Assembly: GCA_903834465.1 (NCBI GenBank)
Contig: CAILJB010000045.1
Location: forward strand, 1-64,000
Source of the DNA: an uncultured Pseudomonadota bacterium
Lineage (GTDB): Bacteria > Pseudomonadota > Gammaproteobacteria > Methylococcales > Methylomonadaceae
Direction of reading: 5' to 3'
DNA: 64,000 bases
The position numbers and the translations under genes are program-made. Positions 5,557 through 59,376 of this stretch are shown piece by piece. Each line of letters opens with the position of its first letter. Positions within the stretch are counted from its first letter, which is position 1. A model generated the notes under the pieces. That model did no database searches. It worked only from the letters and a program-made list of their open reading frames with translations, and was not told the DNA's origin.

Positions 5557-7094
5557 GTATCACAGTTTATGTGCCTTGCGACTCAAGTGCCGTTTCATTA
5601 GGTGCAAATCGTGTCGCTGACGCTATCGCGCAAGAAGCGCAAAAACGTGGCGTTGAAATTGTGTTAGTTCGCAACGGTTCGCGCGGAATGTATTGGCTTG
5701 AACCGATGGTTGAAGTAGCCACTGATAAAGGGCGTATTGCTTACGGTGCAGTAAAAACGAGCGATGTTGCAGGTTTGTTCGATGCTGATTTCTTAAATGG
5801 CGGCGCACATGCGTTGAATTTAGGTTTAACTGAAGAAATCCCTTATCTCAAAAAACAACAACGTTTGACCTTTGCGCGTGTTGGGATTACCAATCCTGTG
5901 AGCGTTGAAGATTATGTTGCTCATGACGGTTATCGCGGTTTGAAAAATGCGTTGAGCTATTCACAAGCAGACATCGTTAAACACGTTACCGATTCAGGTT
6001 TGCGTGGACGTGGTGGCGCGGCGTTTCCAACTGGTATTAAATGGAACACCGTTTTAAATACACCGTCTGAACAAAAATACATTATTTGCAACGCTGACGA
6101 AGGCGATTCGGGTACGTTCTCTGACCGTATGATTATGGAAGGCGACCCACTTGTTTTAATCGAAGGCATGACGATTGCGGGTATCGCAGTTGGCGCGACG
6201 CAAGGTTATATCTATTTGCGTATTGAATACCCACACGCTTACGAAATTTTAAACGCGGCAATTGCGAATGCTTACGCGGCAAATTATTTAGGCGAAAATA
6301 TCCAAGGCAGTGGCAAAACGTTCCATTTAGAAGTTCGTCAAGGTGCGGGCGCGTATGTTTGTGGCGAAGAAACTTCTTTGATGGAAAGTTTAGAAGGCAA
6401 ACGCGGTTTAGTGCGTTTCAAACCACCACTTCCAGCCATCAGCGGTTTATTTGGCAAACCAACGGTTGTTAATAACGTGATTTCGCTCGCGTCTGTGCCA
6501 GTGATTTTAGATAAAGGCGGCGAATTTTACCGTGATTTCGGCATGGGACGTTCACGCGGCACATTGCCATTGCAATTGGCTGGCAATTTAAAACACACAG
6601 GTTTAGTCGAATTAGCGTTCGGCGCGACATTGCGCGAAGTGCTTTACGATTTTGGTGGCGGTTCTGCTACAGGCAAACCCATTCGTGCAGTGCAAGTCGG
6701 CGGGCCTTTAGGTTCATATTTGTCTGAATCACAATTTGATACGCCACTTGATTACGAAGCCTTTGCCGCAATTTGGGCAGTTTTAGGTCACGGCGGTATC
6801 GTGGCATTTGATGAAACGGTTGATTTGGCGCAAATGGCAAAATACAGCATGGAATTCTGCGTTGAAGAATCGTGCGGAAAATGTACGCCTTGTCGAATTG
6901 GCTCAACACGCGGTTATGAAGTGATGGATGAAATTGTTGCAAAACGCGATTTGGATAAAAACATCCCATTATTACGTTCATTGTGCGACACGATGTTAAA
7001 CGGTTCGCTTTGTGCGATGGGTGGCATGACACCGTATCCTGTGTTGAGTGCGCTCAATCATTTCCCTGAAGATTTTGGTATCAAAGCCGCTTAA
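5553..7094 (+). CDS. fdsB: NAD-dependent formate dehydrogenase beta subunit
   Basis: A 513-residue NuoF-type flavoprotein with a short extra thioredoxin-like N-terminal region (about residues 1-110). The NADH/FMN motifs GLRGRGGAAFPTG (near 148) and GAGAYVCGEETSL (near 265) are visible, as is the C-terminal 4Fe-4S ligand set SCGKCTPCRIG (near 445) and its fourth cysteine in LNGSLCAMGG. It reduces NAD+ with electrons from the FdsA clusters and is cytoplasmic. The fdsA start follows 15 bases downstream with an AAAAGGA ribosome site. Confidence 0.95.
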   Translation: MSITVYVPCDSSAVSLGANRVADAIAQEAQKRGVEIVLVRNGSRGMYWLEPMVEVATDKGRIAYGAVKTSDVAGLFDADFLNGGAHALNLGLTEEIPYLKKQQRLTFARVGITNPVSVEDYVAHDGYRGLKNALSYSQADIVKHVTDSGLRGRGGAAFPTGIKWNTVLNTPSEQKYIICNADEGDSGTFSDRMIMEGDPLVLIEGMTIAGIAVGATQGYIYLRIEYPHAYEILNAAIANAYAANYLGENIQGSGKTFHLEVRQGAGAYVCGEETSLMESLEGKRGLVRFKPPLPAISGLFGKPTVVNNVISLASVPVILDKGGEFYRDFGMGRSRGTLPLQLAGNLKHTGLVELAFGATLREVLYDFGGGSATGKPIRAVQVGGPLGSYLSESQFDTPLDYEAFAAIWAVLGHGGIVAFDETVDLAQMAKYSMEFCVEESCGKCTPCRIGSTRGYEVMDEIVAKRDLDKNIPLLRSLCDTMLNGSLCAMGGMTPYPVLSALNHFPEDFGIKAA

Positions 7095-19678: not shown

Positions 19679-20698
19679 CTACACATTAAGTTGTTGTAAT
19701 TGCAAGCGCACCACAACCCAAGAACCTGCAATGCCTAATAACGAAGACACCATAATTAAAGCGAGTGTTTCAAAAAAACCCATGAATAATAAATGAAAAC
19801 TACTGTTATAGAGCATTGATAATTTTTCGACCGGTTGTTTTAACACCAGCATCATAATGGTGACGATAAACCACGCGCTAATACCCGAAAAAAAACCAAT
19901 CCAAAAACCGCTGTATAAAAATGGCCGTTGCACAAAACTATTCGTCGCACCCACTAATTTTGCAATCACAATTTCATCTTTGCGATTATGAAGTTCAAGG
20001 CGAATAGTGTTTCCGGTAATAAACAGCACCGCTAAACTGAGCAAAACGCCTAATAACATCACAGAACATTGCGCGACTTCTATCATGAGTTGCAAACGTT
20101 TCACCCATTGCATATCGAGTTGTGCGAAATCCACTTCACCGGCTTGTTTAAAATTCTCAACAAGCGTTTCAATATTTTGCCCATCTTCGAGCGAATTTTT
20201 TGGAATCACTTGCAAGACAATTGGCAACGGATTTTTTTCCAAAGCACGCACCGCTTCACCAAAACCACTAAAATCTTCAAATTCCTTTAACGCTTGCTCT
20301 TTGGTAATCACTTTTACAGCTTGCACGCTAGGATCTAATTTGATGCCATTCGCCAAGCGATTCGCACTTGCCAGCGACACGTCGTCACGCAAAAACAACG
20401 AAATTTGATTACTGGTTTCTAAATCCGACGTTAATTGCTGGGCATTTTCGACCAATAAATAAAAACCGCACGCCAATGAAATCGAAATCGATAACACGAT
20501 AATCGTCAACACCGCATTCAAACGCGAGGCAACTAAACGCCCTAAACTGGAAAATAAAGCGTGCGCGTGTAAATCCCGATAAGCGCGTAATTTATCCGAA
20601 AAATCACCGCCAACATGCGAAGTCTGTTTCGGATTTTTTTTCGCTTCGATAATGCGATTATGATTATGTCTAGGTTTGTGTTGCTGCACGTTAGCCAC
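19679..20698 (-). CDS. ftsX: Cell division protein FtsX
   Basis: A 339-residue inner-membrane protein of the FtsEX complex, which couples divisome ATP hydrolysis to periplasmic amidase activation. It has a basic cytoplasmic N-terminus, a first membrane helix near 62-84, a periplasmic domain (~85-205) and three further helices near 215, 265 and 310 with FtsX-type sequence (NTIRLELHNRKDEI, IAKLVGATNSFVQRPFLYSG). The start overlaps the ftsE end by eight bases. It is the last gene of the ftsY-ftsE-ftsX run. Confidence 0.93.
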   Translation of the reverse strand: MANVQQHKPRHNHNRIIEAKKNPKQTSHVGGDFSDKLRAYRDLHAHALFSSLGRLVASRLNAVLTIIVLSISISLACGFYLLVENAQQLTSDLETSNQISLFLRDDVSLASANRLANGIKLDPSVQAVKVITKEQALKEFEDFSGFGEAVRALEKNPLPIVLQVIPKNSLEDGQNIETLVENFKQAGEVDFAQLDMQWVKRLQLMIEVAQCSVMLLGVLLSLAVLFITGNTIRLELHNRKDEIVIAKLVGATNSFVQRPFLYSGFWIGFFSGISAWFIVTIMMLVLKQPVEKLSMLYNSSFHLLFMGFFETLALIMVSSLLGIAGSWVVVRLQLQQLNV

Positions 20699-21350
20699 CT
20701 GCGACTAATTGACCATGATCGAGTTTTAACACGCGATGATTTAATTGTGAAATGAGTGAAATATCGTGCGACGCAATCAAAACTGTTACGCCAACTTGTT
20801 TAAATTGTTCAAATAAGTGCATGATTTCTGCGGATAATTCAGGGTCTAAGTTACCGGTTGGTTCGTCAGCTAAAATCATTAATGGTTTATTTACAACAGC
20901 ACGCGCGATACCAATTCGTTGCTGTTCACCACCCGATAATGTGAGCGGATATTTTTTTTCTTTACCAAGCAAACCCACTTTGTCAAGTGCTGCGCGAACA
21001 CGTCGCGAAATTTCATTATAACTGTAACCCATAATAATCAGCGGTAATGCGACGTTATCAAACACCGTTCGGTCATTGAGTAATTTATAATCTTGGAAAA
21101 TCAATCCCATTTTGCGCCGAATGAACGGAATTTGGCGCGAATTGATTTTGTTCAAATTGTAATCACTAAACGTAATTTGCCCACGATTGCCACGTTCCAT
21201 CATCGCAATGAGTTTGAACAATGTACTTTTGCCCGCCCCCGAATGCCCTGTTAAAAACGCAATTTCGCCTTTTTCAAGATGAAAACTGACGCTACGCAAC
21301 ACATCGCCCACTTCAGGATAACGCATACTCACATTGTCGAACTTTAACAT
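20691..21350 (-). CDS. ftsE: Cell division ATP-binding protein FtsE
   Basis: A 219-residue ABC ATPase with Walker A GHSGAGKST near residue 36, signature LSGGEQQR near 138, Walker B LILADEPTGNLDPE near 160 and the H-loop SHD. It begins MLKFDNVSMRYP as FtsE does. It pairs with FtsX and is recruited to FtsZ. It starts 6 bases after the CtaA-like/FtsY fusion gene, keeping the classical ftsY-ftsE-ftsX order. Confidence 0.95.
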   Translation of the reverse strand: MLKFDNVSMRYPEVGDVLRSVSFHLEKGEIAFLTGHSGAGKSTLFKLIAMMERGNRGQITFSDYNLNKINSRQIPFIRRKMGLIFQDYKLLNDRTVFDNVALPLIIMGYSYNEISRRVRAALDKVGLLGKEKKYPLTLSGGEQQRIGIARAVVNKPLMILADEPTGNLDPELSAEIMHLFEQFKQVGVTVLIASHDISLISQLNHRVLKLDHGQLVAGG

Positions 21351-21356
21351 GGTCGA

Positions 21357-23066
21357 TTAGTCTTTAGTAAACAACGCATTAACAAACGATTCTGCATCAA
21401 AATCTTGCAAATCTTCAATGCCTTCGCCGATGCCGATAAAACGAATCGGCACGCCAAATTGTTTCGCCAAAGCAAAAATAACACCGCCTTTTGCCGTACC
21501 GTCCAATTTCGTCAGCGTCAAACCTGTCAATGTCACCGCTTCGTTGAACAATTTGGTTTGTGAAACCGCATTTTGTCCTGTGCCTGCATCTAAAACTAAT
21601 AACACTTCATGCGGCGCAGTATCATCGAGCTTTGCCATGATGCGTTTGACTTTTTTCAATTCGTCCATCAAGTTCGATTTTGTCTGCAAACGCCCTGCTG
21701 TGTCCGCAATTAAAACGTTAATGCCTTTTGCTTGCGCGGATTGGACAGCATCGTAAATAACCGAAGCGGAATCTGCGCCAGTGTGTTGCGCGACAACATG
21801 AATTTGATTACGCTCACCCCACGTTTGCAATTGCTCAACAGCAGCGGCTCTGAATGTATCGCCTGCGGCAAGCATCACGCTATGACCTTGTGATTTCAAA
21901 CGATTTGCCAATTTTCCAATTGTCGTGGTTTTGCCCGCACCATTTACGCCGACGACTAAAATAACAAACGGTTTATCTTGTTTGGGAATGGTTAAGTTCA
22001 CGCTGCATGGTTGCAAAATTTCTAATAATTCTTCTTTTAAAATAGCTTCTAATGCCGTGCTATCTTTGAGTTCTGAACGCGTGACACGCTCGTTTAAACG
22101 GTCAATAATGGCTCGCGTTGCTTCAACGCCTACGTCTGCCATGAGCAAATTCGTTTCGATTTCTTCAAGCAAATCATCGTTAATCGTTTTCGATAAAGAC
22201 AACGTTGAAAATACGCCACCTAAACCGGTGCGTGTGCGTTGCAATTGCGATTTTAAACGACCGTATAACGAATCCGCAGTAATAACAGGTGTTTCACTAA
22301 CAGGTAATTCGGTTGTTAAAACGTCACTTTTTGATTCAAATGGAAAGTCGTATTTGCTGTAAAAATGAATCGCAATCAGCGGCAAAATAAGCAATGTTGC
22401 TAATGTCGCGTGAATGACTGCCATCCACCATGGCAAATCAAATTTGATAGTAAGAATGCTTAAACTGATTTGTAAAAATAATAAACCGCTCAGCCACAAG
22501 CCTGCTTTGCGTAACGTTTTCGATGGCGCAGATGTCGCTCGAAAGCTAACACCGCTTAAAACCACGAAACACAATAACGCGCCCGCGCGATGCAACCACG
22601 CTAAGGTAATTTGCGCGTCATAAGCCACGACACCACTGTAATGATTTTGCAAGCCGTAAAATAAATTCAGTGCATTGTCATAATTTAACGCTGGCAACCA
22701 TGTTCCGTTGCATTGCGGAAAACCGCGACACGCCAAGGCGGCATGATTTGCCGTTGTCCAATCACCTAAAAATACTTGGATTAAAACCACAATTAACGCA
22801 ACTTGTACAAACAATCGGCTTTGCGGTTGCGGCGACAAAATCACCCGTGAATCCAAACGTAAATACAACGTAAACAACAACCAAAAAATACTACTTATTA
22901 AAAACAACGCGCCCGTCACCACAATCGGCATTATTTGCGCGAGCAACCGATGCAACTCATTTAAATTTAAATTACCTAAATCAATCGGCGATAAGCGAAT
23001 CCACTCGCTTGTAATAATCGTCGCTAATGCAAGTAGGACGCTCACTCCTGTTATTTTTCTAAACAT
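21357..23066 (-). CDS. ftsY: Fusion of a shortened CtaA/Cox15-like membrane domain and FtsY
   Basis: A single 569-codon frame. Residues 1-236 form a Cox15/CtaA-like domain with about six predicted membrane helices and the signature GDWTTANHAALACRGFPQCN (Cys113, Cys119). They include candidate haem-ligand histidines in ELHRLL (39), WLHRAG (159) and VIHATL (219). Compared with full heme A synthase (~340 residues, eight helices) one helix pair, one of the four histidines and the N-terminal Cys pair are missing. Residues ~265-569 are a complete SRP receptor NG domain: GVNGAGKTT (373-381), GDTFRAAA, DTAGRL (455-460) and TKLDGTAKGG (519-528). No ATG, and no GTG or TTG with a ribosome site, occurs between residues 236 and 275, so FtsY appears to be made only as the fusion. 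It lies between SCO-like/SURF1 oxidase assembly genes and ftsEX. Confidence 0.88.
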   Translation of the reverse strand: MFRKITGVSVLLALATIITSEWIRLSPIDLGNLNLNELHRLLAQIMPIVVTGALFLISSIFWLLFTLYLRLDSRVILSPQPQSRLFVQVALIVVLIQVFLGDWTTANHAALACRGFPQCNGTWLPALNYDNALNLFYGLQNHYSGVVAYDAQITLAWLHRAGALLCFVVLSGVSFRATSAPSKTLRKAGLWLSGLLFLQISLSILTIKFDLPWWMAVIHATLATLLILPLIAIHFYSKYDFPFESKSDVLTTELPVSETPVITADSLYGRLKSQLQRTRTGLGGVFSTLSLSKTINDDLLEEIETNLLMADVGVEATRAIIDRLNERVTRSELKDSTALEAILKEELLEILQPCSVNLTIPKQDKPFVILVVGVNGAGKTTTIGKLANRLKSQGHSVMLAAGDTFRAAAVEQLQTWGERNQIHVVAQHTGADSASVIYDAVQSAQAKGINVLIADTAGRLQTKSNLMDELKKVKRIMAKLDDTAPHEVLLVLDAGTGQNAVSQTKLFNEAVTLTGLTLTKLDGTAKGGVIFALAKQFGVPIRFIGIGEGIEDLQDFDAESFVNALFTKD

Positions 23067-23072
23067 TTTCTA

Positions 23073-23675
23073 CTAACCAATTTGTGAAATTTTTAAAAGG
23101 TGCATCAAATCACTTTTTGCATCATACGGATTAAAGTTTGGCGCGTATTGCATCATGAAATTGCCAAGCGGATCGACAAGTAATAACGCACCTTCGGGAA
23201 TTTGCCCATTATAAAGCACATTCAATTTTTCCATGACGCTCACATTCGGTTTTAAGCGCAATAAATCCGTGTCTTCTTTCCACCAATTCGCGGCAGTATC
23301 TTGCGACACATTCGCATCCAGCACTAAAACCGCGCGGCGCGTTCGCACCAATTCTTTATTTAGCATCAAACGTAATTGCCGACTTTTGTGCAATGCGTCT
23401 AAACAAACATCACCACAATCGTTTTTAGGAATGACATTGACAATCAACCAATGCGCCTCAAGTTCTTTTAAATTGTCCTGCGAAAAAGCATCGAAACCTT
23501 GAAAATCGGTGCGTTCAGTCGTGATGATTGGCGTAATTAACTGTCCATGATTGGTTGCTGAGGGCGTTAATAATTCAGGATTTTTTGCCAAAAACCATGC
23601 AATGCTAAACGGGATAATCGACATTGCGAAAATGCCAATAATAAGTTGTCGATTTCTACGTTGTTGAGGTGTCAT
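23073..23675 (-). CDS. SCO1-like cytochrome oxidase assembly protein
   Basis: A 200-residue membrane-anchored protein: basic start, one membrane helix (~11-28, IIGIFAMSIIPFSIAWFL), then a thioredoxin-like domain with WLIVNVIPKNDCGDVCLDAL near 95, carrying a CxxxC pair as in SCO copper chaperones. Proteins of this type sit between SURF1 and CtaA in many gamma- and betaproteobacterial oxidase clusters and are thought to help copper or redox assembly of the Cu-A site. Here it overlaps SURF1 (4 bases) and is 6 bases before the CtaA-like/FtsY gene. Confidence 0.78.
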   Translation of the reverse strand: MTPQQRRNRQLIIGIFAMSIIPFSIAWFLAKNPELLTPSATNHGQLITPIITTERTDFQGFDAFSQDNLKELEAHWLIVNVIPKNDCGDVCLDALHKSRQLRLMLNKELVRTRRAVLVLDANVSQDTAANWWKEDTDLLRLKPNVSVMEKLNVLYNGQIPEGALLLVDPLGNFMMQYAPNFNPYDAKSDLMHLLKISQIG

Positions 23676-24373
23676 TTTTTCAAACCAAATTTAATAAAAA
23701 TTATTGTTAAAGCAAACGCTAAACCGAACCATTGTAGCGCGTATGCTAAATGTTGTTCAGGCTGCATTATTTTAGCTGCCGCCCAGTCACGTTTAAAACC
23801 GTTTGGTAAAGCTGCGTCCAATTCTAATTGAAAGTTAAATAATTCGTAGCCTAACTGTCGCGCTAAAATTTGACTATCGATTACGCCTACGACAGCAGGA
23901 TTGGTTTTTGTCGGCTGATTTGCACCTTCCAATTTCAAACCAATACTTGGAAAAGTGTTAAGCCGTCCGTTTAACGTGATGTTGCCTTCTACTAAAAAAT
24001 TCACATTTGGCAACGTTGCACGCGGTTCAACTAATGGAATCCAGCCACGATTTACCAAAATGGCTTTGGAACTATTTTGCAATTTAAAGGGCGTAAAAAC
24101 GAAATAGCCTGCTTTGCCCGCATCGATTTGATTATCGAGCAAAAACTGTTTCGTCGTGTCGTAATGCCCAATAACGCTTGCTTGTTTATAGCGCAACTCG
24201 GTTGCATCGCTAGACGTTTCTGTTGTCAATTGAATTGTCTCATTTACGCGTCGTGCTTCGGTATCTAAAAACTCTTGTTTTTCGTTAGCACGGTTAATTT
24301 GCCACGCCCCCAAACTCAAAAATAATATGAATAATCCTAAATAAGCAAATAGCCATCTTAGTTTTATATTCAT
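23672..24373 (-). CDS. SURF1 family cytochrome oxidase assembly protein
   Basis: A 233-residue protein with an N-terminal membrane helix (~7-25, LFAYLGLFILFLSLGAWQ), a large periplasmic domain (LLDNQIDAGKAGYFVFTPF, VNRGWIPL near 118) and a C-terminal helix ending in ALQWFGLAFALTIIF. SURF1/Shy1 proteins deliver or retain heme a for insertion into oxidase subunit I. The ATG at 24373 with AAAGG upstream is preferred to 24412. It is divergent from the DUF2909 gene and leads into the SCO-like gene. Confidence 0.9.
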   Translation of the reverse strand: MNIKLRWLFAYLGLFILFLSLGAWQINRANEKQEFLDTEARRVNETIQLTTETSSDATELRYKQASVIGHYDTTKQFLLDNQIDAGKAGYFVFTPFKLQNSSKAILVNRGWIPLVEPRATLPNVNFLVEGNITLNGRLNTFPSIGLKLEGANQPTKTNPAVVGVIDSQILARQLGYELFNFQLELDAALPNGFKRDWAAAKIMQPEQHLAYALQWFGLAFALTIIFIKFGLKK

Positions 24374-24450
24374 GCTGTCGCCTTTAAAGTTGTATTGCCG
24401 TCGCAAAATCATCGAAAATAGGATTTTCTTTTTTCACGATACTCAAAATT

Positions 24451-24708
24451 ATGTTGATTAAAACGTTAGTCATTATTGCTTTTGTTGCCATTATCGCCAG
24501 TTTGGGTTCGGCGTTATTTCACCTAGTTAAACACAAAGATAAAGTCAACTCACAAAAAACACTTAAAGCCTTAACATTTCGGATTGGATTATCGGTTGCG
24601 TTATTTATTTTTGTTGTCATTGCGATTGCAACGGGATTAGTTGAGCCACATGGTTTAGGTGCAAAAATTCACAGCTCGCAATCTATTTCTGAAATACCTA
24701 CAAAATAA
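24451..24708 (+). CDS. DUF2909 twin-transmembrane small protein
   Basis: An 85-residue protein with two membrane helices (~3-25 and ~47-67) joined by a short basic loop, matching DUF2909. The family is regularly found beside SURF1 and cox3 in proteobacterial oxidase clusters and is probably an assembly or stability factor, but its role is not established. It is transcribed opposite to the rest of the cluster and is followed by a bidirectional terminator. Confidence 0.82.
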   Translation: MLIKTLVIIAFVAIIASLGSALFHLVKHKDKVNSQKTLKALTFRIGLSVALFIFVVIAIATGLVEPHGLGAKIHSSQSISEIPTK

Positions 24709-24777: not shown

Positions 24778-25644
24778 TTACATTAAATAAACGAAAATAA
24801 ACAAACCTAACCAAACTACGTCAACAAAGTGCCAATACCACGCAGCCGCTTCAAACGCGAAATGGTTTTCTGGGCTGAAATGACCTTTCCAGCTACGGAA
24901 TAATACGACGCTCAAAATAATCGCACCAACGCAAACGTGGAAACCGTGGAAACCTGTCAACATGAAGAAAGTTGAACCGTAAATGCCTGAACCTAAAGTT
25001 AAGCCCATTTCGGTATACGCTTCGTGATATTCAATGGCTTGGCAAAGTACGAATAAAAAGCCTAAACCTACTGTTGCGGCTAAACCTTGAATCAATTGTT
25101 TACGATTTTTAGCAATTAAACCGTGATGCGCCCAAGTACAAGTTACGCCACTGGTTAAAAGTAACAATGTATTCAATAAAGGCAAACCAAACGCGCCCAT
25201 TGGTTCAAAATGACCACCCACATTGCCAGGACCATTTGTTGGCCAGACAGCATCAAAACTTGGCCATAAAAGTGCATGTGTTGCAGCATTTGAACCTGCA
25301 CCACCTAACCATGGCACTGATAAATTGCGGGTATACCACAATGTGCCAAAGAAAACCGCGAAGAACATGATTTCAGAAAAAATGAACCACATCATGCCCA
25401 TGCGATATGAAATACCCACGCCATGATTGTACATACCAGATTCACTTTCGGTTGATTGCAACGTAAACCAACCCGCAAGCATGACGATGAAAATAGTCAG
25501 CCCTGCAACCATTAGCGTTGAGCCAATAGATGAGCCATTAAGATAATTTGCAAATCCCGCTAACGTAGTCACTAAACCAGCAGTTGCCAGCACAGGCCAT
25601 GTCGCTTTATGCGGAATGTAATAAGTAGTATTACTTGTTGACAT
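24778..25644 (-). CDS. ctaE: Cytochrome c oxidase subunit III
   Basis: A 288-residue protein with seven membrane helices and subunit III sequence: YRMGMMWFIFSEIMFF near residue 80, the mid-protein PFDAVWP-like segment, and the C-terminal FHGFHVCVGAI and AAWYWHFVDVVWL, which contain the conserved His/Glu-rich faces. It stabilises the proton-pumping core of aa3-type oxidase. The gene begins 13 bases after cox11. Confidence 0.95.
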   Translation of the reverse strand: MSTSNTTYYIPHKATWPVLATAGLVTTLAGFANYLNGSSIGSTLMVAGLTIFIVMLAGWFTLQSTESESGMYNHGVGISYRMGMMWFIFSEIMFFAVFFGTLWYTRNLSVPWLGGAGSNAATHALLWPSFDAVWPTNGPGNVGGHFEPMGAFGLPLLNTLLLLTSGVTCTWAHHGLIAKNRKQLIQGLAATVGLGFLFVLCQAIEYHEAYTEMGLTLGSGIYGSTFFMLTGFHGFHVCVGAIILSVVLFRSWKGHFSPENHFAFEAAAWYWHFVDVVWLGLFIFVYLM

Positions 25645-25657
25645 AAACTTCCCCTTG

Positions 25658-26209
25658 TTATTTTTTTACGGCTGTTTCAGTGTTATCAAAAAAAGTGTAG
25701 GACAACGTAATCGTTTTGTAATCTTTCGGTAAATTCGGGTTAATCACAAAACGCATTGGCATCGTTTTCTTTTCATGCGGCGCAAAAGTCTGTTCTGAAA
25801 AACAAAAACATTCTACTTTCTCAAAATAAGTGCTAGTCAAAGCAGGGGAAAAACTCGGAATCGCTCGCGCAATCATCGGTTTATTCGTCTTATTTTCAGC
25901 ATAAAAATTCACCGTATGATATTCACCGGTGTGAACTTGCAATTGCTTTGTTTCCGCACTAAAAACCATCGGTGTGTTTTCGTTTAACGTGGTTACAAAT
26001 TCCACGTTAATATTGCGATTCACATCGACAGGATAAGCGATTTCCGGAATCGCTTTAATCGCATCGGGGCGATCACGCTCAATCCATTTCCATTCGCACA
26101 ATACGTCATACAACGGCACTAACGCATAACCAAAACCAAACATCGCAATGGCAATAATTGCCAATTTGCGTCCTAACTTTTTATTTTTTACCGCAACATC
26201 ATCGTTCAT
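25658..26209 (-). CDS. ctaG: Cytochrome c oxidase assembly protein CtaG/Cox11
   Basis: A 183-residue membrane-anchored copper chaperone for the Cu-B site of subunit I. It has one N-terminal helix (~15-32, IIAIAMFGFGYALVPLYDVLC), the Cox11 beta-sandwich, and the copper-binding pair in KVECFCFSEQTF near residue 130. The ATG overlaps the stop of a tiny upstream gene as ATGA, indicating coupling. Confidence 0.93.
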   Translation of the reverse strand: MNDDVAVKNKKLGRKLAIIAIAMFGFGYALVPLYDVLCEWKWIERDRPDAIKAIPEIAYPVDVNRNINVEFVTTLNENTPMVFSAETKQLQVHTGEYHTVNFYAENKTNKPMIARAIPSFSPALTSTYFEKVECFCFSEQTFAPHEKKTMPMRFVINPNLPKDYKTITLSYTFFDNTETAVKK

Positions 26210-26304
26210 CGTGATACTGCTTGAATGACAGCCATAACGTAAATCGTAGTAGCGATTGCAATTAACACCACCGCCGTTAAGATATTTTTTTGTTTTATCG
26301 TCAT
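26206..26304 (-). CDS. 32-residue single-helix protein between coxA and cox11
   Basis: A small frame missed by usual length cut-offs: it begins MTIKQKN, then a hydrophobic helix ILTAVVLIAIATTIYVMAVI, and ends QAVSR. A tiny one-helix cytochrome oxidase assembly protein is often found between coxA and ctaG in other Proteobacteria, so position and shape both support a real gene. Its TGA overlaps the cox11 start (ATGA). The function in oxidase maturation is inferred from position only. Confidence 0.65.
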   Translation of the reverse strand: MTIKQKNILTAVVLIAIATTIYVMAVIQAVSR

Positions 26305-26318
26305 ATTCAATCCAACGC

Positions 26319-26342
26319 AGAGACGCGATAAATCGCGCCTCT
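26319..26342. repeat. REP-like palindrome inside the oxidase operon
   Basis: AGAGACGCGAT and ATCGCGCCTCT pair over 11 bases with one mismatch around a two-base loop. It lies in the gap between coxA and the 32-residue gene. It resembles dispersed palindromes of the type GAGACGCGATxxATCGCGTCTC found in many genomes. It could slow or partly end transcription or protect upstream mRNA. Confidence 0.55.
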
Positions 26343-26353
26343 ACATTTTGACC

Positions 26354-27976
26354 TTAATCGTGATCGCAAGGAATCACAGTAGGTGGCGTTGTGAAGGTGT
26401 GATAAGGCGGTGGAGATGGCAATGTCCATTCCAAACCGTGTTTATGTGCATCTTCCCAAACTTCGTCGGTTACTTTTTCGCCTGTGCCGCCTTTGATTGT
26501 GTCAATCACAATCCAAAGGAATAACAATTGGCTCACGCCGAAAATGAAACCACCAATACTTGAAACCATGTTCCAATCCGCAAATTGAATCGCGTAATCA
26601 GGAATACGACGTGGCATACCTGCTAATCCCAAGAAATGTTGTGGGAAAAACAAAACGTTTACCGAAATCGCAGACAACCAGAAATGCAATTGTCCAATTT
26701 TTTCGTTATACATGTGACCCGTCCATTTAGGCAACCAGTAATAACCTGCCGCCATCAAAATGAACACTGACGCTGGAACTAAGGTGTAATGAAAATGCGC
26801 CACGATGAAATAAGTATCATGATATTGGAAATCCACTGGTGCAACAGACATCATCAAACCAGTAAAACCACCTAATGTGAACAATACAACGAATGCAATT
26901 GAAAACAACATCGGTGTTTCAAATGTCATTGCGCCTTTCCACATCGTTGCAGTCCAGTTAAAGACTTTCACGCCGGTTGGAATCGCAATCAACATAGTGG
27001 CATACATGAAATACAACTCGCCTGAAATTGGCAAGCCGACCGTGAACATGTGATGCGCCCAAACGATGAATGACAAAAATGCAATTGACGCTGTTGCATA
27101 AACCATTGAGCTGTAACCAAATAAAGGTTTACGCGCAAATACTGGAATAATGGTCGATGCCACACCAAAAGTTGGCAAAATCATGACATAAACTTCTGGG
27201 TGTCCGAAGAACCAGAAAATGTGTTGATAAAGCACTGGATCACCACCACCTGCTGCATCAAAGAAGCTAGTGTGGAAGAATTTGTCGGTCAGCAACATGG
27301 TTACTGCGCCAGCAAATACAGGCATAATTGCAATTAACAAGAAACCTGTAATGAGCCAAGTCCAAACGAACAATGGCATTTTCATCAACGTCATAGCAGG
27401 CGCGCGCATATTCAAAATAGTCGCGATAATGTTAATCGCACCCATAATTGATGAAATACCGAGCAAATGCACAGAAAAAATCGCGAACGGTAACGCTTTA
27501 CCTGTTTGCAAAACTAACGGTGGATACAATGTCCAACCACCGGCAGGTGCGCCACCTTCCATGAATAATGTTGATGCAAGTAATAAAACACCTGCAACCA
27601 GCATCCAAAAACTCATGTTGTTCATGCGTGGCAACGCCATATCCGGCGCACCAATCATCATTGGAATCATCCAGTTCGCAAGACCTACGAATGCTGGCAT
27701 AACCGCCCCGAATACCATAACCAGCGCGTGCATGGTCGTCATCGAGTTAAAAAATTGCGGATTTACAAATTGCATTCCGGGTTCAAACAATTCAGCACGA
27801 ATAATCATCGCCATCGCGCCGCCAACGAAAAACATCGCCAACGCAAATAACAAATACAACGTACCAATATCTTTATGGTTGGTGGTAATTATCCATCGCA
27901 ACCAGCCCTTCTCTGGGCCATGCGCGTGATCATCGTGATGATCATCGTGTCCATGTTCAGCTATTACAGCAGACAT
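26354..27976 (-). CDS. ctaD: Cytochrome c oxidase subunit I
   Basis: The 540-residue catalytic subunit of aa3-type oxidase with twelve membrane helices. It shows the low-spin haem region ([14 protein letters not shown]), the Cu-B/active-site [17 protein letters not shown] with the cross-linking His-Tyr pair near residue 250, HHMFTVG near 300, and the haem ligand region HFHYTLV near 387. The N-terminus carries a His/Asp-rich stretch ([13 protein letters not shown]) common in gammaproteobacterial members. GAGG lies upstream of the ATG. It follows coxB. Confidence 0.97.
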
Positions 27977-28025
27977 ACTTTATACCTCATAACAGTTAAA
28001 AAAGAGTAAAAACGACAAACCTTTA

Positions 28026-29159
28026 TTACTTATCATCGTCGTCATAAACGGGCGTGATAGCTTTAGGTTGAATTTCGTCGCCAACTTTATTGCCGAGTTC
28101 AGGCGCATTTCTAATGTAAGTAATGACTGCCGCTAATTCGTTGTCTTTCAACTTAGCAAATGAAGGCATTCTGCTTGTACCTGCTTGCAAGAATCCAATC
28201 AAAGGATCGATACCAGCCGTTACTTTTGCACTACCACGCAATGCTGGGAAAGCTCCCGCCGCACCGTTACCATCAATTTGATGACATGAAACGCAGTTTT
28301 TCAAATACACTGCCGCGCCATTTGCCATTAACTGTTCGCGCGATTGATCGCTTAAATCAGGTTTTTCATTTTGTTTTGCTAAAGTCGTTTGAACCCATTT
28401 GTCGTAATCAGGTTGTTCCATTGCAATAACAACGATAGGCATAAAGCCATGATCGCGACCACACAATTCGGTACATTGACCACGATAAACACCTGGTTTA
28501 TCAACTTGAGTCCACGCTTCGTTAATGAAGCCTGGGTTTGCGTCTTTTTTCCAACCTAAATCAGGTACCCACCAAGAATGGATTACGTCAGCGGCGGTGA
28601 AGACGAAACGGATTTTTTTGCCAACCGGCACAACCAATGGGTTATCCACGTTTAACAAATAATGCGGAACAGTGTGTGGATCAATCGAATCAACACGATG
28701 CGCCTTTTCACTGGCAGCATCTAAATGACTTTCAAAATGCACGCCGCTATCAAGGTATTCATAATCCCAATACCACTGTTTACCGGTGACTTTAATAGAC
28801 ATTTCAGATTCTTGAACATCATCCAATTCTATCATCGCTTTGGTAGCAGGAATCGCCATGCCGATTAAAATCAACGTGGGGATAATTGTCCAAATGATTT
28901 CGACAGTCGTATTTTCATGGAAATTCGCGGCTTTATGTCCTTTTGATTTACGATGATGGTAAATCGAATAAAACATTGTGCCGAAAACGGCAATACCAAT
29001 AAACACGCATATCCATAGAATAAGCATGTGCAGGTCATAAATGTCATTACTGACTTTTGTAACCCCTTGCATCAAATTAAGTGCGTAATCCGCCTGCGCT
29101 GTTTGCAACCCAAAGGCTGTCAACGTAGCACCGACGAAAAGTTGCTTTGTTTTTTTCAC
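28026..29159 (-). CDS. ctaC: Cytochrome c oxidase subunit II with fused cytochrome c domain
   Basis: A 377-residue subunit II. It has a signal peptide ending QTAQA, two membrane helices (~45-68 and ~88-110), then the cupredoxin domain with Cu-A ligands (HSWWVPDLG and CTELCGRDHGFM). A C-terminal class I cytochrome c follows, with CVSCH near residue 292 and an axial Met in TSRMPSF. The fused haem domain makes it a caa3-like subunit able to accept electrons from soluble cytochrome c. It is the first gene of the oxidase run. The start is GTG at 29159, with AGAGGAG about 10 bases upstream lying in a small hairpin. Confidence 0.95.
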   Translation of the reverse strand: MKKTKQLFVGATLTAFGLQTAQADYALNLMQGVTKVSNDIYDLHMLILWICVFIGIAVFGTMFYSIYHHRKSKGHKAANFHENTTVEIIWTIIPTLILIGMAIPATKAMIELDDVQESEMSIKVTGKQWYWDYEYLDSGVHFESHLDAASEKAHRVDSIDPHTVPHYLLNVDNPLVVPVGKKIRFVFTAADVIHSWWVPDLGWKKDANPGFINEAWTQVDKPGVYRGQCTELCGRDHGFMPIVVIAMEQPDYDKWVQTTLAKQNEKPDLSDQSREQLMANGAAVYLKNCVSCHQIDGNGAAGAFPALRGSAKVTAGIDPLIGFLQAGTSRMPSFAKLKDNELAAVITYIRNAPELGNKVGDEIQPKAITPVYDDDDK

Positions 29160-57696: not shown

Positions 57697-59376
57697 TTAC
57701 TTCAATTGAAGTTCCAAACCGCCTTTGCCATTCGCATCGGCAACAGGCACAATTTCAGTGTGCGTTGTTGAATCGCTGCTTAAATGCGAGAATGGTACGA
57801 CGGGATTGCTTGGATCGAATGGCACAGATGCGGTGAAACCGCGTGGATCAGCCGTGGTCGCAAAAATACCCGTTTTACCCCACGCTTGCGTAGTATTTAC
57901 GACGCTGGCAACGGTTGGACTGCCTAAATCATCCGCTAAGGCTTTTAACAATTTTGTTTTAGATGCCCATAATTTATCACTTGGTTTAGCTGTGGAATAA
58001 AGGATTGAACCTTCTGCCCAAACAGGATAAACACCCGCCGCGACGTTTTCCAAAGTAGGTGCGTAACCATCTATTTTTATATAACGCCATGGATCACCAC
58101 CTGTACCATCGGCTTTAACAGCGTTATTTCGATCTGCACTATTTATCGCAATGCCCCAACGTTTTGCAAAGCCTGAACCATCCACAACATTATTGAAATG
58201 CGTGGTATTTGTGCCATTCTGCCAATCTTTCAACAAATTGCCGGTATCCGCAGTACCCGCTGGTGATTTAACGATAGGTAAAGACGCATCTTCTTGAATA
58301 GGTTTGTCAGCTATTGCACTAGCAGGTGCGATGGAATAAGGTGTCGCTGGATAATTGAGGAATTTAGAATAAGCAACCGCCCCAACAGCCGCCCCGCTAT
58401 TACGTCTACCGATTGCAATAGGTGTGAAATGGCTACCAGAGGTGGTTTCTTTATGAGGCGCGGTAACGCCAGCATCGTTAAGAATCGCGTTATCGAGCAG
58501 CGATTTAACCGTGTTATCCGTTTTATCAACAATTTTGAACTGATCCCACGCGCCAACTTTCCCAGCGAGCAATGAACCAATGACATTACGATTAAGACTT
58601 GGTAAATCACCGTCGCTGTAACCACCAATAACTGCGGTACTTGGTAATGTACCGGCGCGTTTTTGTGCTGCTTGCAGAACTTTGTATAAATCCAATGTAA
58701 CCGCTACACCGTAGACTAAACCACCTGTAGGAACTATCGTAAATGCTCCAGCCCCAGTTGTTTTAATACCATTCCAATCCAATGGCCAATTTGCTTCAGG
58801 TCGTCCTGTAATCAGTTCATTGACAGGCGTTGGATAATTTTCAGTTCCACGTTTTAATAAAATATTCGGATCAACGCCTAAAAAACCACCATCCGAAACA
58901 TGTTTAGCAAGGTATTTACTAGCATTTGCACTGGTAAGCGTCGTTTTCCAAGATCCAGCTGCTGTATCTGCTGTCCAGTCTGCAGCCTTTGTACCAACGA
59001 TATTGAGATGTTCAATTGAAATATTTGCAACCAATGGCACCACGCCATAACCTGCTGCACCGTAAATCCGTTTTTCCAATAAAATCTTTTTGCCCGCCAA
59101 ACCGGTGCCTAACTTATCGTTGCCTGTGAAATAATAGGCCGTCCAACGTGAACCGACTGACCCAGTATTAGGATCAACATCGGAAAAAACATCAAGGGTG
59201 CCTGTTGCCGCCAATGTAGTGGCAACAACTTGACCATAGGCTTTATCTTGCGCCGCACCACCGGATGTGTAAATAGTAATATCGGGAGCTTGGTCAGTCC
59301 ACGGTGTGAGCGCGTAACTTGCCGGTGCGCCTAACAATAAAGAAATAGCCACGCTGAGTTTTTTTATGTTTTTCAT
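57697..59376 (-). CDS. PstS-like secreted substrate-binding protein
   Basis: A 559-residue secreted protein: signal peptide KKLSVAISLLLGAPASYA, then a periplasmic-binding-protein (type II) fold like phosphate-binding PstS, here enlarged with insertions. Segments include DITIYTSGGAAQDKAYGQVV near residue 30, NVIGSLLAGKVGAWDQFKI (~270-300) and a C-terminal KLLKALADDLGSPTVASVV. No Pst permease or ATPase is adjacent; it stands first in the TPS/TonB run, so an uptake role would need other partners. A surface or scavenging function is possible. The ATG at 59376, with an AGAAGG site, is chosen over the upstream 59484. The binding ligand is not proven. Confidence 0.68.
   Translation of the reverse strand: MKNIKKLSVAISLLLGAPASYALTPWTDQAPDITIYTSGGAAQDKAYGQVVATTLAATGTLDVFSDVDPNTGSVGSRWTAYYFTGNDKLGTGLAGKKILLEKRIYGAAGYGVVPLVANISIEHLNIVGTKAADWTADTAAGSWKTTLTSANASKYLAKHVSDGGFLGVDPNILLKRGTENYPTPVNELITGRPEANWPLDWNGIKTTGAGAFTIVPTGGLVYGVAVTLDLYKVLQAAQKRAGTLPSTAVIGGYSDGDLPSLNRNVIGSLLAGKVGAWDQFKIVDKTDNTVKSLLDNAILNDAGVTAPHKETTSGSHFTPIAIGRRNSGAAVGAVAYSKFLNYPATPYSIAPASAIADKPIQEDASLPIVKSPAGTADTGNLLKDWQNGTNTTHFNNVVDGSGFAKRWGIAINSADRNNAVKADGTGGDPWRYIKIDGYAPTLENVAAGVYPVWAEGSILYSTAKPSDKLWASKTKLLKALADDLGSPTVASVVNTTQAWGKTGIFATTADPRGFTASVPFDPSNPVVPFSHLSSDSTTHTEIVPVADANGKGGLELQLK

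Follow-up and report, generated by a model that had tools for sequence, protein, structure and literature searches.

FtsY, the SRP receptor, is nearly universal, and how firmly it must be attached to the membrane has long been debated. The NG domain of E. coli FtsY remains functional when it is attached to unrelated membrane proteins (Zelazny 1997, as discussed in PMC5533587) and, according to the same discussion, also works when fused to a Streptomyces hydrophobic segment (PMC5533587), so that a permanently anchored receptor is workable. Heme A synthase, CtaA/Cox15, carries heme b in its C-terminal bundle and heme O in its N-terminal bundle (PMC7327177), and CtaA-CtaB fusions have been described (PMC8239418).

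The protein analysed here, from an uncultured member of the Methylococcales, may be compared with each of these systems. It is like E. coli FtsY (TIGR00064) in its NG domain, GTPase motifs, 64% identity, ftsY-ftsE-ftsX gene order and accompanying Ffh and 4.5S RNA, but six heme A synthase helices take the place of the A domain and would prevent it from cycling off the membrane. With the engineered E. coli NG domains placed on a foreign membrane protein it shares integral-membrane anchoring of the SRP receptor; unlike theirs, its anchor arose naturally from an enzyme, spans the membrane several times and has a putative cofactor site. The integral-membrane SRP receptor of the Streptomyces type likewise has an N-terminal anchor, whereas here the anchor is derived from CtaA. 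Like type-B (1.1) heme A synthases (PF02628; 6a2j, 8aw5), the protein has the TM5-8 bundle, the heme-b histidine pair and the ECL3 cysteine pair, and its gene also lies downstream of surf1 and a PA0111-family gene; unlike them, it has lost two helices, the ECL1 cysteine pair and the equivalent of H123, and is joined to FtsY. The CtaA-CtaB fusions also combine CtaA with a C-terminal partner, but their partner is the enzyme that acts one step earlier in the pathway and not, as here, the SRP receptor. A literature search covering journals other than subscription titles found no paper on a CtaA-FtsY protein, and our analysis suggests a membrane-anchored, possibly heme-carrying SRP receptor that has apparently gone unstudied so far.

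The fusion gene and its neighbourhood

The gene lies in a window of 64,000 nucleotides, the whole stretch of DNA that was analysed, from a genome of 2.82 Mb that is 97% complete. The features of the locus are as follows.

21357..23066, minus strand: ctaA-ftsY fusion gene, sole ftsY in the genome (ORF, Pfam, NCBIfam, congener conservation)
22341..23066, minus strand: membrane domain, residues 1-242, a type-B heme A synthase remnant (Pfam, AlphaFold2, Foldseek, alignment)
22269..22340, minus strand: disordered, fast-evolving linker, residues 243-266, in place of the FtsY A domain (pLDDT <50; dN/dS 0.30; no SD-preceded start codon)
21360..22268, minus strand: FtsY N and G domains, residues 267-569, including the amphipathic N-domain start SLYGRLKSQLQRTR (Pfam/NCBIfam; Foldseek)
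20691..21350, minus strand: ftsE, beginning 6 nt past the fusion gene (ORF, NCBIfam)
19679..20698, minus strand: ftsX (ORF, NCBIfam)
23073..23675, minus strand: PA0111-family periplasmic disulfide protein, 6 nt upstream of the fusion and its neighbour across the order (weak NCBIfam match below the cut-off; synteny)
23672..24412, minus strand: surf1 (Pfam)
24778..29159, minus strand: cox cluster of coxC, ctaG/cox11, coxA and coxB (ORFs; ctaG by Pfam, coxC by BLAST, coxA and coxB by sequence reading)

The open reading frame at 21357-23066 (minus strand) begins with ATG and encodes 569 residues without an internal stop. Pfam places COX15-CtaA at residues 50-228, a match confined to the second half of the profile (positions 146-319 of 322), followed by SRP54_N at residues 281-347 and SRP54 at residues 366-566, and the NCBIfam FtsY model (TIGR00064) scores 369.7 bits against a cut-off of 260.7. 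The GTPase motifs GVNGAGKTTT, DTAGR and TKLDGTAKGG are all present and invariant, or nearly so, in a 47-row alignment. AlphaFold2, run on this alignment, predicts six membrane helices, a low-confidence stretch at about residues 243-295 and a well-formed NG domain, for which the best Foldseek match is the E. coli FtsY NG domain (6cqp, 64% identity). The A domain with its membrane-targeting segment, common though not universal at the FtsY N-terminus, is absent, and AlphaFold2 and hydropathy place the CtaA-derived membrane anchor N-terminal to the NG domain instead. An earlier note on this DNA, made from the sequence alone, had thus rightly described one intact frame joining a CtaA-type membrane domain to a complete FtsY NG domain, with about six membrane helices where the acidic A domain would usually stand.

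The gene order of the window also bears out the statement that the fusion gene joins the cox genes to ftsEX. Judged by their spacing, the PA0111-family gene, the fusion and ftsE, with surf1 and the cox genes beyond, make up a single compact row of genes. The cox genes are separated from surf1 onward by a plus-strand DUF2909 gene (24451-24708), and the fusion gene may therefore be driven by a promoter upstream of surf1 and not by the coxB promoter.

No second FtsY was found in the genome, the two weaker matches being Ffh and FlhF as judged by rank and score, so that FtsY exists only as the fusion, as had been proposed. Both ffh and 4.5S RNA are present, as is ctaB.

Distribution of the fusion

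When 61 relatives were compared, the fused query matched a single uninterrupted frame in almost every member of families f1-f6, with a length of 564-582 aa in the genus of the window and ~620-864 aa elsewhere, the frames being longer there since other genera have lost little or none of CtaA. In families f7 and f8, ftsY (~330-350 aa) and ctaA are separate genes. A census of 151 Methylococcales genomes at least 90% complete found FtsY in 151/151: the single FtsY lay in a frame of 565-878 aa in 139 of the 140 f1-f6 genomes, that is, in all that were listed (G462 is not among the matches listed), and the frame measured 343-367 aa in the 11 genomes of f7 and f8. Frame length alone is no proof of CtaA, and the extra part of the fusion was CtaA-derived in every sequence that was extracted. 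Among the isolates that carry it are Methylobacter tundripaludum, M. luteus, Methylovulum miyakonense, Methylomonas lenta, Methyloglobulus morosus and Methylotetracoccus oryzae. The CtaA-FtsY fusion is an order-wide, ancient architecture in the Methylococcales, two outgroup families excepted. The earlier note was right about the fusion itself, and its check for both domains in one chain turned them up across the order; the fusion is not, however, confined to one genome, and the other genomes mostly retain all eight CtaA helices.

The assembly that holds the window is a draft in 135 contigs, which might speak for an artefact of assembly or binning. Such an artefact is refuted, with practically no probability left to it, by the recurrence of the same fusion in dozens of independent genomes, isolates and single-contig assemblies among them; assembly error is excluded because 16 congeners keep the fused frame, with 77-92% identity across residues 1-569.

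Outside the Methylococcales, no fusion was among the matches listed for 369 Gammaproteobacteria genomes, where a rare, weaker case is possible. The long CtaA frames seen in G347, G156, G145, G350, G075 and G144 are CtaA-CtaB fusions or ordinary CtaA with a spurious extension; G347:C80 (L228), from another gammaproteobacterium, encodes a CtaA-CtaB fusion of 655 aa. We do not claim that the fusion is tied to methanotrophy, since families f7 and f8, which lack it, have AMO/pMMO-type genes as well.

Origin of the fusion

In the unfused families, ftsY-ftsE-ftsX-rpoH converges on sco-ctaB-ctaA-PA0111-surf1-coxC (gene labels by similarity and sequence reading), and the order in fused genomes is coxC-surf1-PA0111-ctaA~ftsY-ftsE-ftsX-rpoH. 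In genomes G058 and G047 the next matched gene past rpoH is ctaB, in the opposite orientation, and a single inversion joining ctaA to ftsY therefore explains the origin of the fusion. Such an inversion, with one break separating ctaA from ctaB and the other at the 5' end of ftsY, would yield the fused order exactly. Unfused FtsY begins with MFGFGKKK and then a short acidic stretch; the former is lost in the fusion, and the amphipathic segment that comes next is kept (EGFFGRLKNQL in relatives, SLYGRLKSQL in the window). The CtaA tree sets the fusion of G040 (F_G040) apart, but it does not reject a single clade of fusions (p-AU 0.318 under that constraint), and independent origins were not adopted.

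The membrane domain and its decayed half

Modelled alone by AlphaFold2, the membrane domain reaches a mean pLDDT of 88.9 and a pTM of 0.87, and its only Foldseek match in the PDB below E 0.001 is the B. subtilis heme A synthase 6a2j (E 1.1e-4). A PDB sequence search with the membrane domain of the window protein alone returned nothing relevant; the family profile did align 6a2j. The helices are TM1 (residues 2-25), a hybrid TM2/TM4 (47-70), TM5 (85-106), TM6 (149-178), TM7 (183-208) and TM8 (213-238), so that instead of eight helices in two four-helix bundles, as found in most other genera, the window protein has six, the helix pair TM2-3 having been deleted in its genus. The positions of E57, H60 and H123 are occupied by N, H and A, respectively, and the ECL1 cysteine pair is absent; H39 (in NELHRLL) lies near the H60 position and is Tyr in several congeners. 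Alignment and AlphaFold2 thus agree with the earlier reading that the CtaA part has lost a pair of helices, a histidine ligand and the N-terminal cysteine pair; these are TM2-3, the equivalent of H123 and the pair in ECL1. With its N-terminal half, the heme O substrate half, cut to two helices, the fused CtaA in the genus of the window is predicted not to act as a normal heme A synthase and should not make heme A.

The number of helices, counted simply from hydropathy, is even (8 or 6) in 104/113 fusions, the odd counts in the other 9/113 being read as threshold errors. An even number of helices would place the FtsY NG domain in the cytoplasm.

Retention of the heme-b half

The C-terminal half of the membrane domain presents the opposite picture. 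The following features of the window protein were placed by alignment to 6a2j or by their substitution rate.

22728..22730, minus strand: C113, corresponding to B. subtilis CtaA C191 (kept in 74/78 non-redundant fusions; aligned to 6a2j)
22710..22712, minus strand: C119, corresponding to C197 (kept in 74/78; aligned to 6a2j)
22590..22592, minus strand: H159, corresponding to heme-b ligand H216 (kept in 75/78; aligned to the HR motif of 6a2j)
22410..22412, minus strand: H219, corresponding to heme-b ligand H278 (kept in 77/78; aligned to the TM8 His of 6a2j)
22617..22751, minus strand: ECL3, the periplasmic loop of residues 106-150, under the strongest constraint within the membrane domain (dN/dS 0.030)

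Within the same 78 non-redundant fusions, the residues of the N-terminal half are kept in 52 (ECL1 cysteine pair), 24 (E57), 50 (H60) and 56 (H123). On the NG-domain tree, whose 73 rows are a somewhat different set from the 78 fusions, the ECL1 cysteine pair changed 4 times, E57 9 times, H60 12 times and H123 11 times, against 2 changes for the ECL3 cysteine pair, 1 for H216 and 0 for H278, with residues tracked by alignment to the intact fusion of G040. Within the genus, dN/dS (pairwise Nei-Gojobori medians over 86 non-independent pairs) is 0.030 for ECL3 (residues 106-150), 0.031 for the G domain, 0.060 for the N domain, 0.070 for TM5-8, 0.235 for residues 1-80 and 0.30 for the linker. The standalone CtaA of the genus (20 pairs) is the mirror image of the fusion, with its strongest constraint in ECL1/TM1-4 and its weakest around TM5/ECL3. 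The substrate half of the fused CtaA has decayed repeatedly, and the heme-b half is nearly invariant.

Such strong purifying selection on the C-terminal half argues that more than a hydrophobic anchor is maintained in most lineages, and the retention of the ECL3 cysteines is the more telling because the second cysteine pair of B. subtilis CtaA is not needed for enzyme activity (PMC12808453). We consider heme-b binding by the fused bundle likely, although this conservation, read from sequence throughout, may reflect a function other than heme. The suggestion that the CtaA part serves as a membrane anchor rather than an enzyme fits the loss of the catalytic features but undersells the selection on the C-terminal half; of the two options offered in the earlier note, that the domain still touches heme appears the better supported. 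In at least three lineages (L066; L073 with L075; and L141 of G024) the heme-b ligands, cysteine pair and ECL3 loop are partly or wholly lost and the helices and FtsY are kept, so that the heme site is not needed everywhere and the membrane anchor is the one universal feature. These four loci provide natural controls for the heme question.

A model for the fused receptor

We propose a model in which the fusion is quite probably an obligatorily membrane-anchored SRP receptor that uses a retained heme-b bundle as its anchor and is not a heme A synthase. The FtsY NG domain would be tethered by the flexible linker to the cytoplasmic end of the decayed heme A synthase, and with the loss of the usual A domain, and thereby of reversible lipid binding, anchoring would have become permanent. 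In the SRP-receptor function that we infer, complexes of SRP/4.5S RNA and ribosome would dock on the NG domain at the membrane. The C-terminal four-helix bundle would keep its putative bis-His heme-b site and the periplasmic cysteine pair, any bound heme b most likely serving to keep the bundle folded and stable, and heme supply or the periplasmic redox state may affect the level or activity of the receptor. A more far-reaching version, in which the heme b bundle signals heme supply or periplasmic redox state via C113/C119 and the neighbouring PA0111-family protein, would make this a heme-responsive SRP receptor; we regard such a regulatory link as distinctly improbable, though if true, co-translational insertion of membrane proteins, oxidase subunits included, would be tuned to heme availability.

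The CtaA remnant could instead be a plain hydrophobic tether, with the C-terminal half conserved through packing and proximity to the linker and not through heme. That the lineages without the C-half ligands and loop retain the helices and the fusion, that the anchor alone is universal and that helix parity is kept all speak for this reading, but the invariant residues are the heme ligands, the cysteine pair and a G-W-N-A loop motif, and a periplasmic loop distant from FtsY is as constrained as the GTPase, even though its cysteine pair is dispensable for the B. subtilis enzyme; we consider a plain tether unlikely, yet the most credible of the alternatives. The bundle might also still aid heme A synthesis, for example by associating with the standalone CtaA, whose constraint pattern is opposite to that of the fusion, and A. 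aeolicus CtaA does trimerise via its C-terminal bundles (PMC7327177). As the standalone CtaA has its own H216 and H278 equivalents in every genome looked at, we give such a role scarcely any weight.

The fusion would be incidental if internal initiation or proteolysis were to free a normal soluble FtsY. The linker is disordered and fast evolving, and could be cut, and in-frame TTG codons occur; in the stretch spanning the linker and N domain of the window protein, however, the only in-frame start-type codons are three TTG, none with an SD-like motif, in agreement with the earlier observation that the linker holds no plausible internal start. An SD-preceded start codon is found in this stretch in only 22/113 fusions, at positions that are not conserved, and some genomes, congeners included, have no in-frame start codon there at all. 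Furthermore, MFGFGKKK, the lipid-binding segment with which the unfused relatives begin, has been lost. Release of free FtsY by internal initiation is thus unlikely, and split products as a whole seem very improbable to us.

Under the anchored-receptor model, a whole order of methanotrophs would live with an SRP receptor unable to leave the membrane, a natural experiment on FtsY attachment. The fusion also shows how an enzyme can be captured as a structural component through a single inversion, the catalytic half then decaying repeatedly as the cofactor half persists. Both points can be tested in cultured species, e.g. Methylomonas or Methylobacter.

A second, candidate heme A synthase

The check for a second, full-length ctaA proposed in the earlier note found one on a separate contig of the same genome, belonging to another clade: the standalone CtaA proteins of the order form one fully supported group in the tree, far from the fused and the other gammaproteobacterial CtaA. 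They have Asn at the H60 position and are without the ECL3 cysteine pair. The Asn is found in the standalone CtaA of every sampled Methylococcales genome of f1-f6, an example from the genus of the window being L001 (G000:C91:72220-73110). Where the fused CtaA has lost its N-terminal half, the Asn-type standalone protein is the only candidate heme A synthase, and either it would be active or heme A would be made by another route.

A damaged N-terminal half of the fused protein co-occurs with a standalone ctaA in all sampled genomes except G050 (85% complete), which would fit a loss of enzyme function once a second enzyme was present. In G040 (94% complete) no standalone ctaA was found and the fused CtaA is fully intact; its CtaA-FtsY fusion (L234/L157), with every catalytic residue in place, may combine a working enzyme and a receptor in a single polypeptide.

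The standalone ctaA shares a contig with a pmoA/AMO-family gene in three genomes of the genus of the window, the two being 15-35 kb apart, at the following positions.

G000:C91: standalone ctaA at 72220, pmoA/AMO-family gene at 87776
G001:C61: standalone ctaA at 6462, pmoA/AMO-family gene at 24633
G010:C13: standalone ctaA at 58700, pmoA/AMO-family gene at 93204
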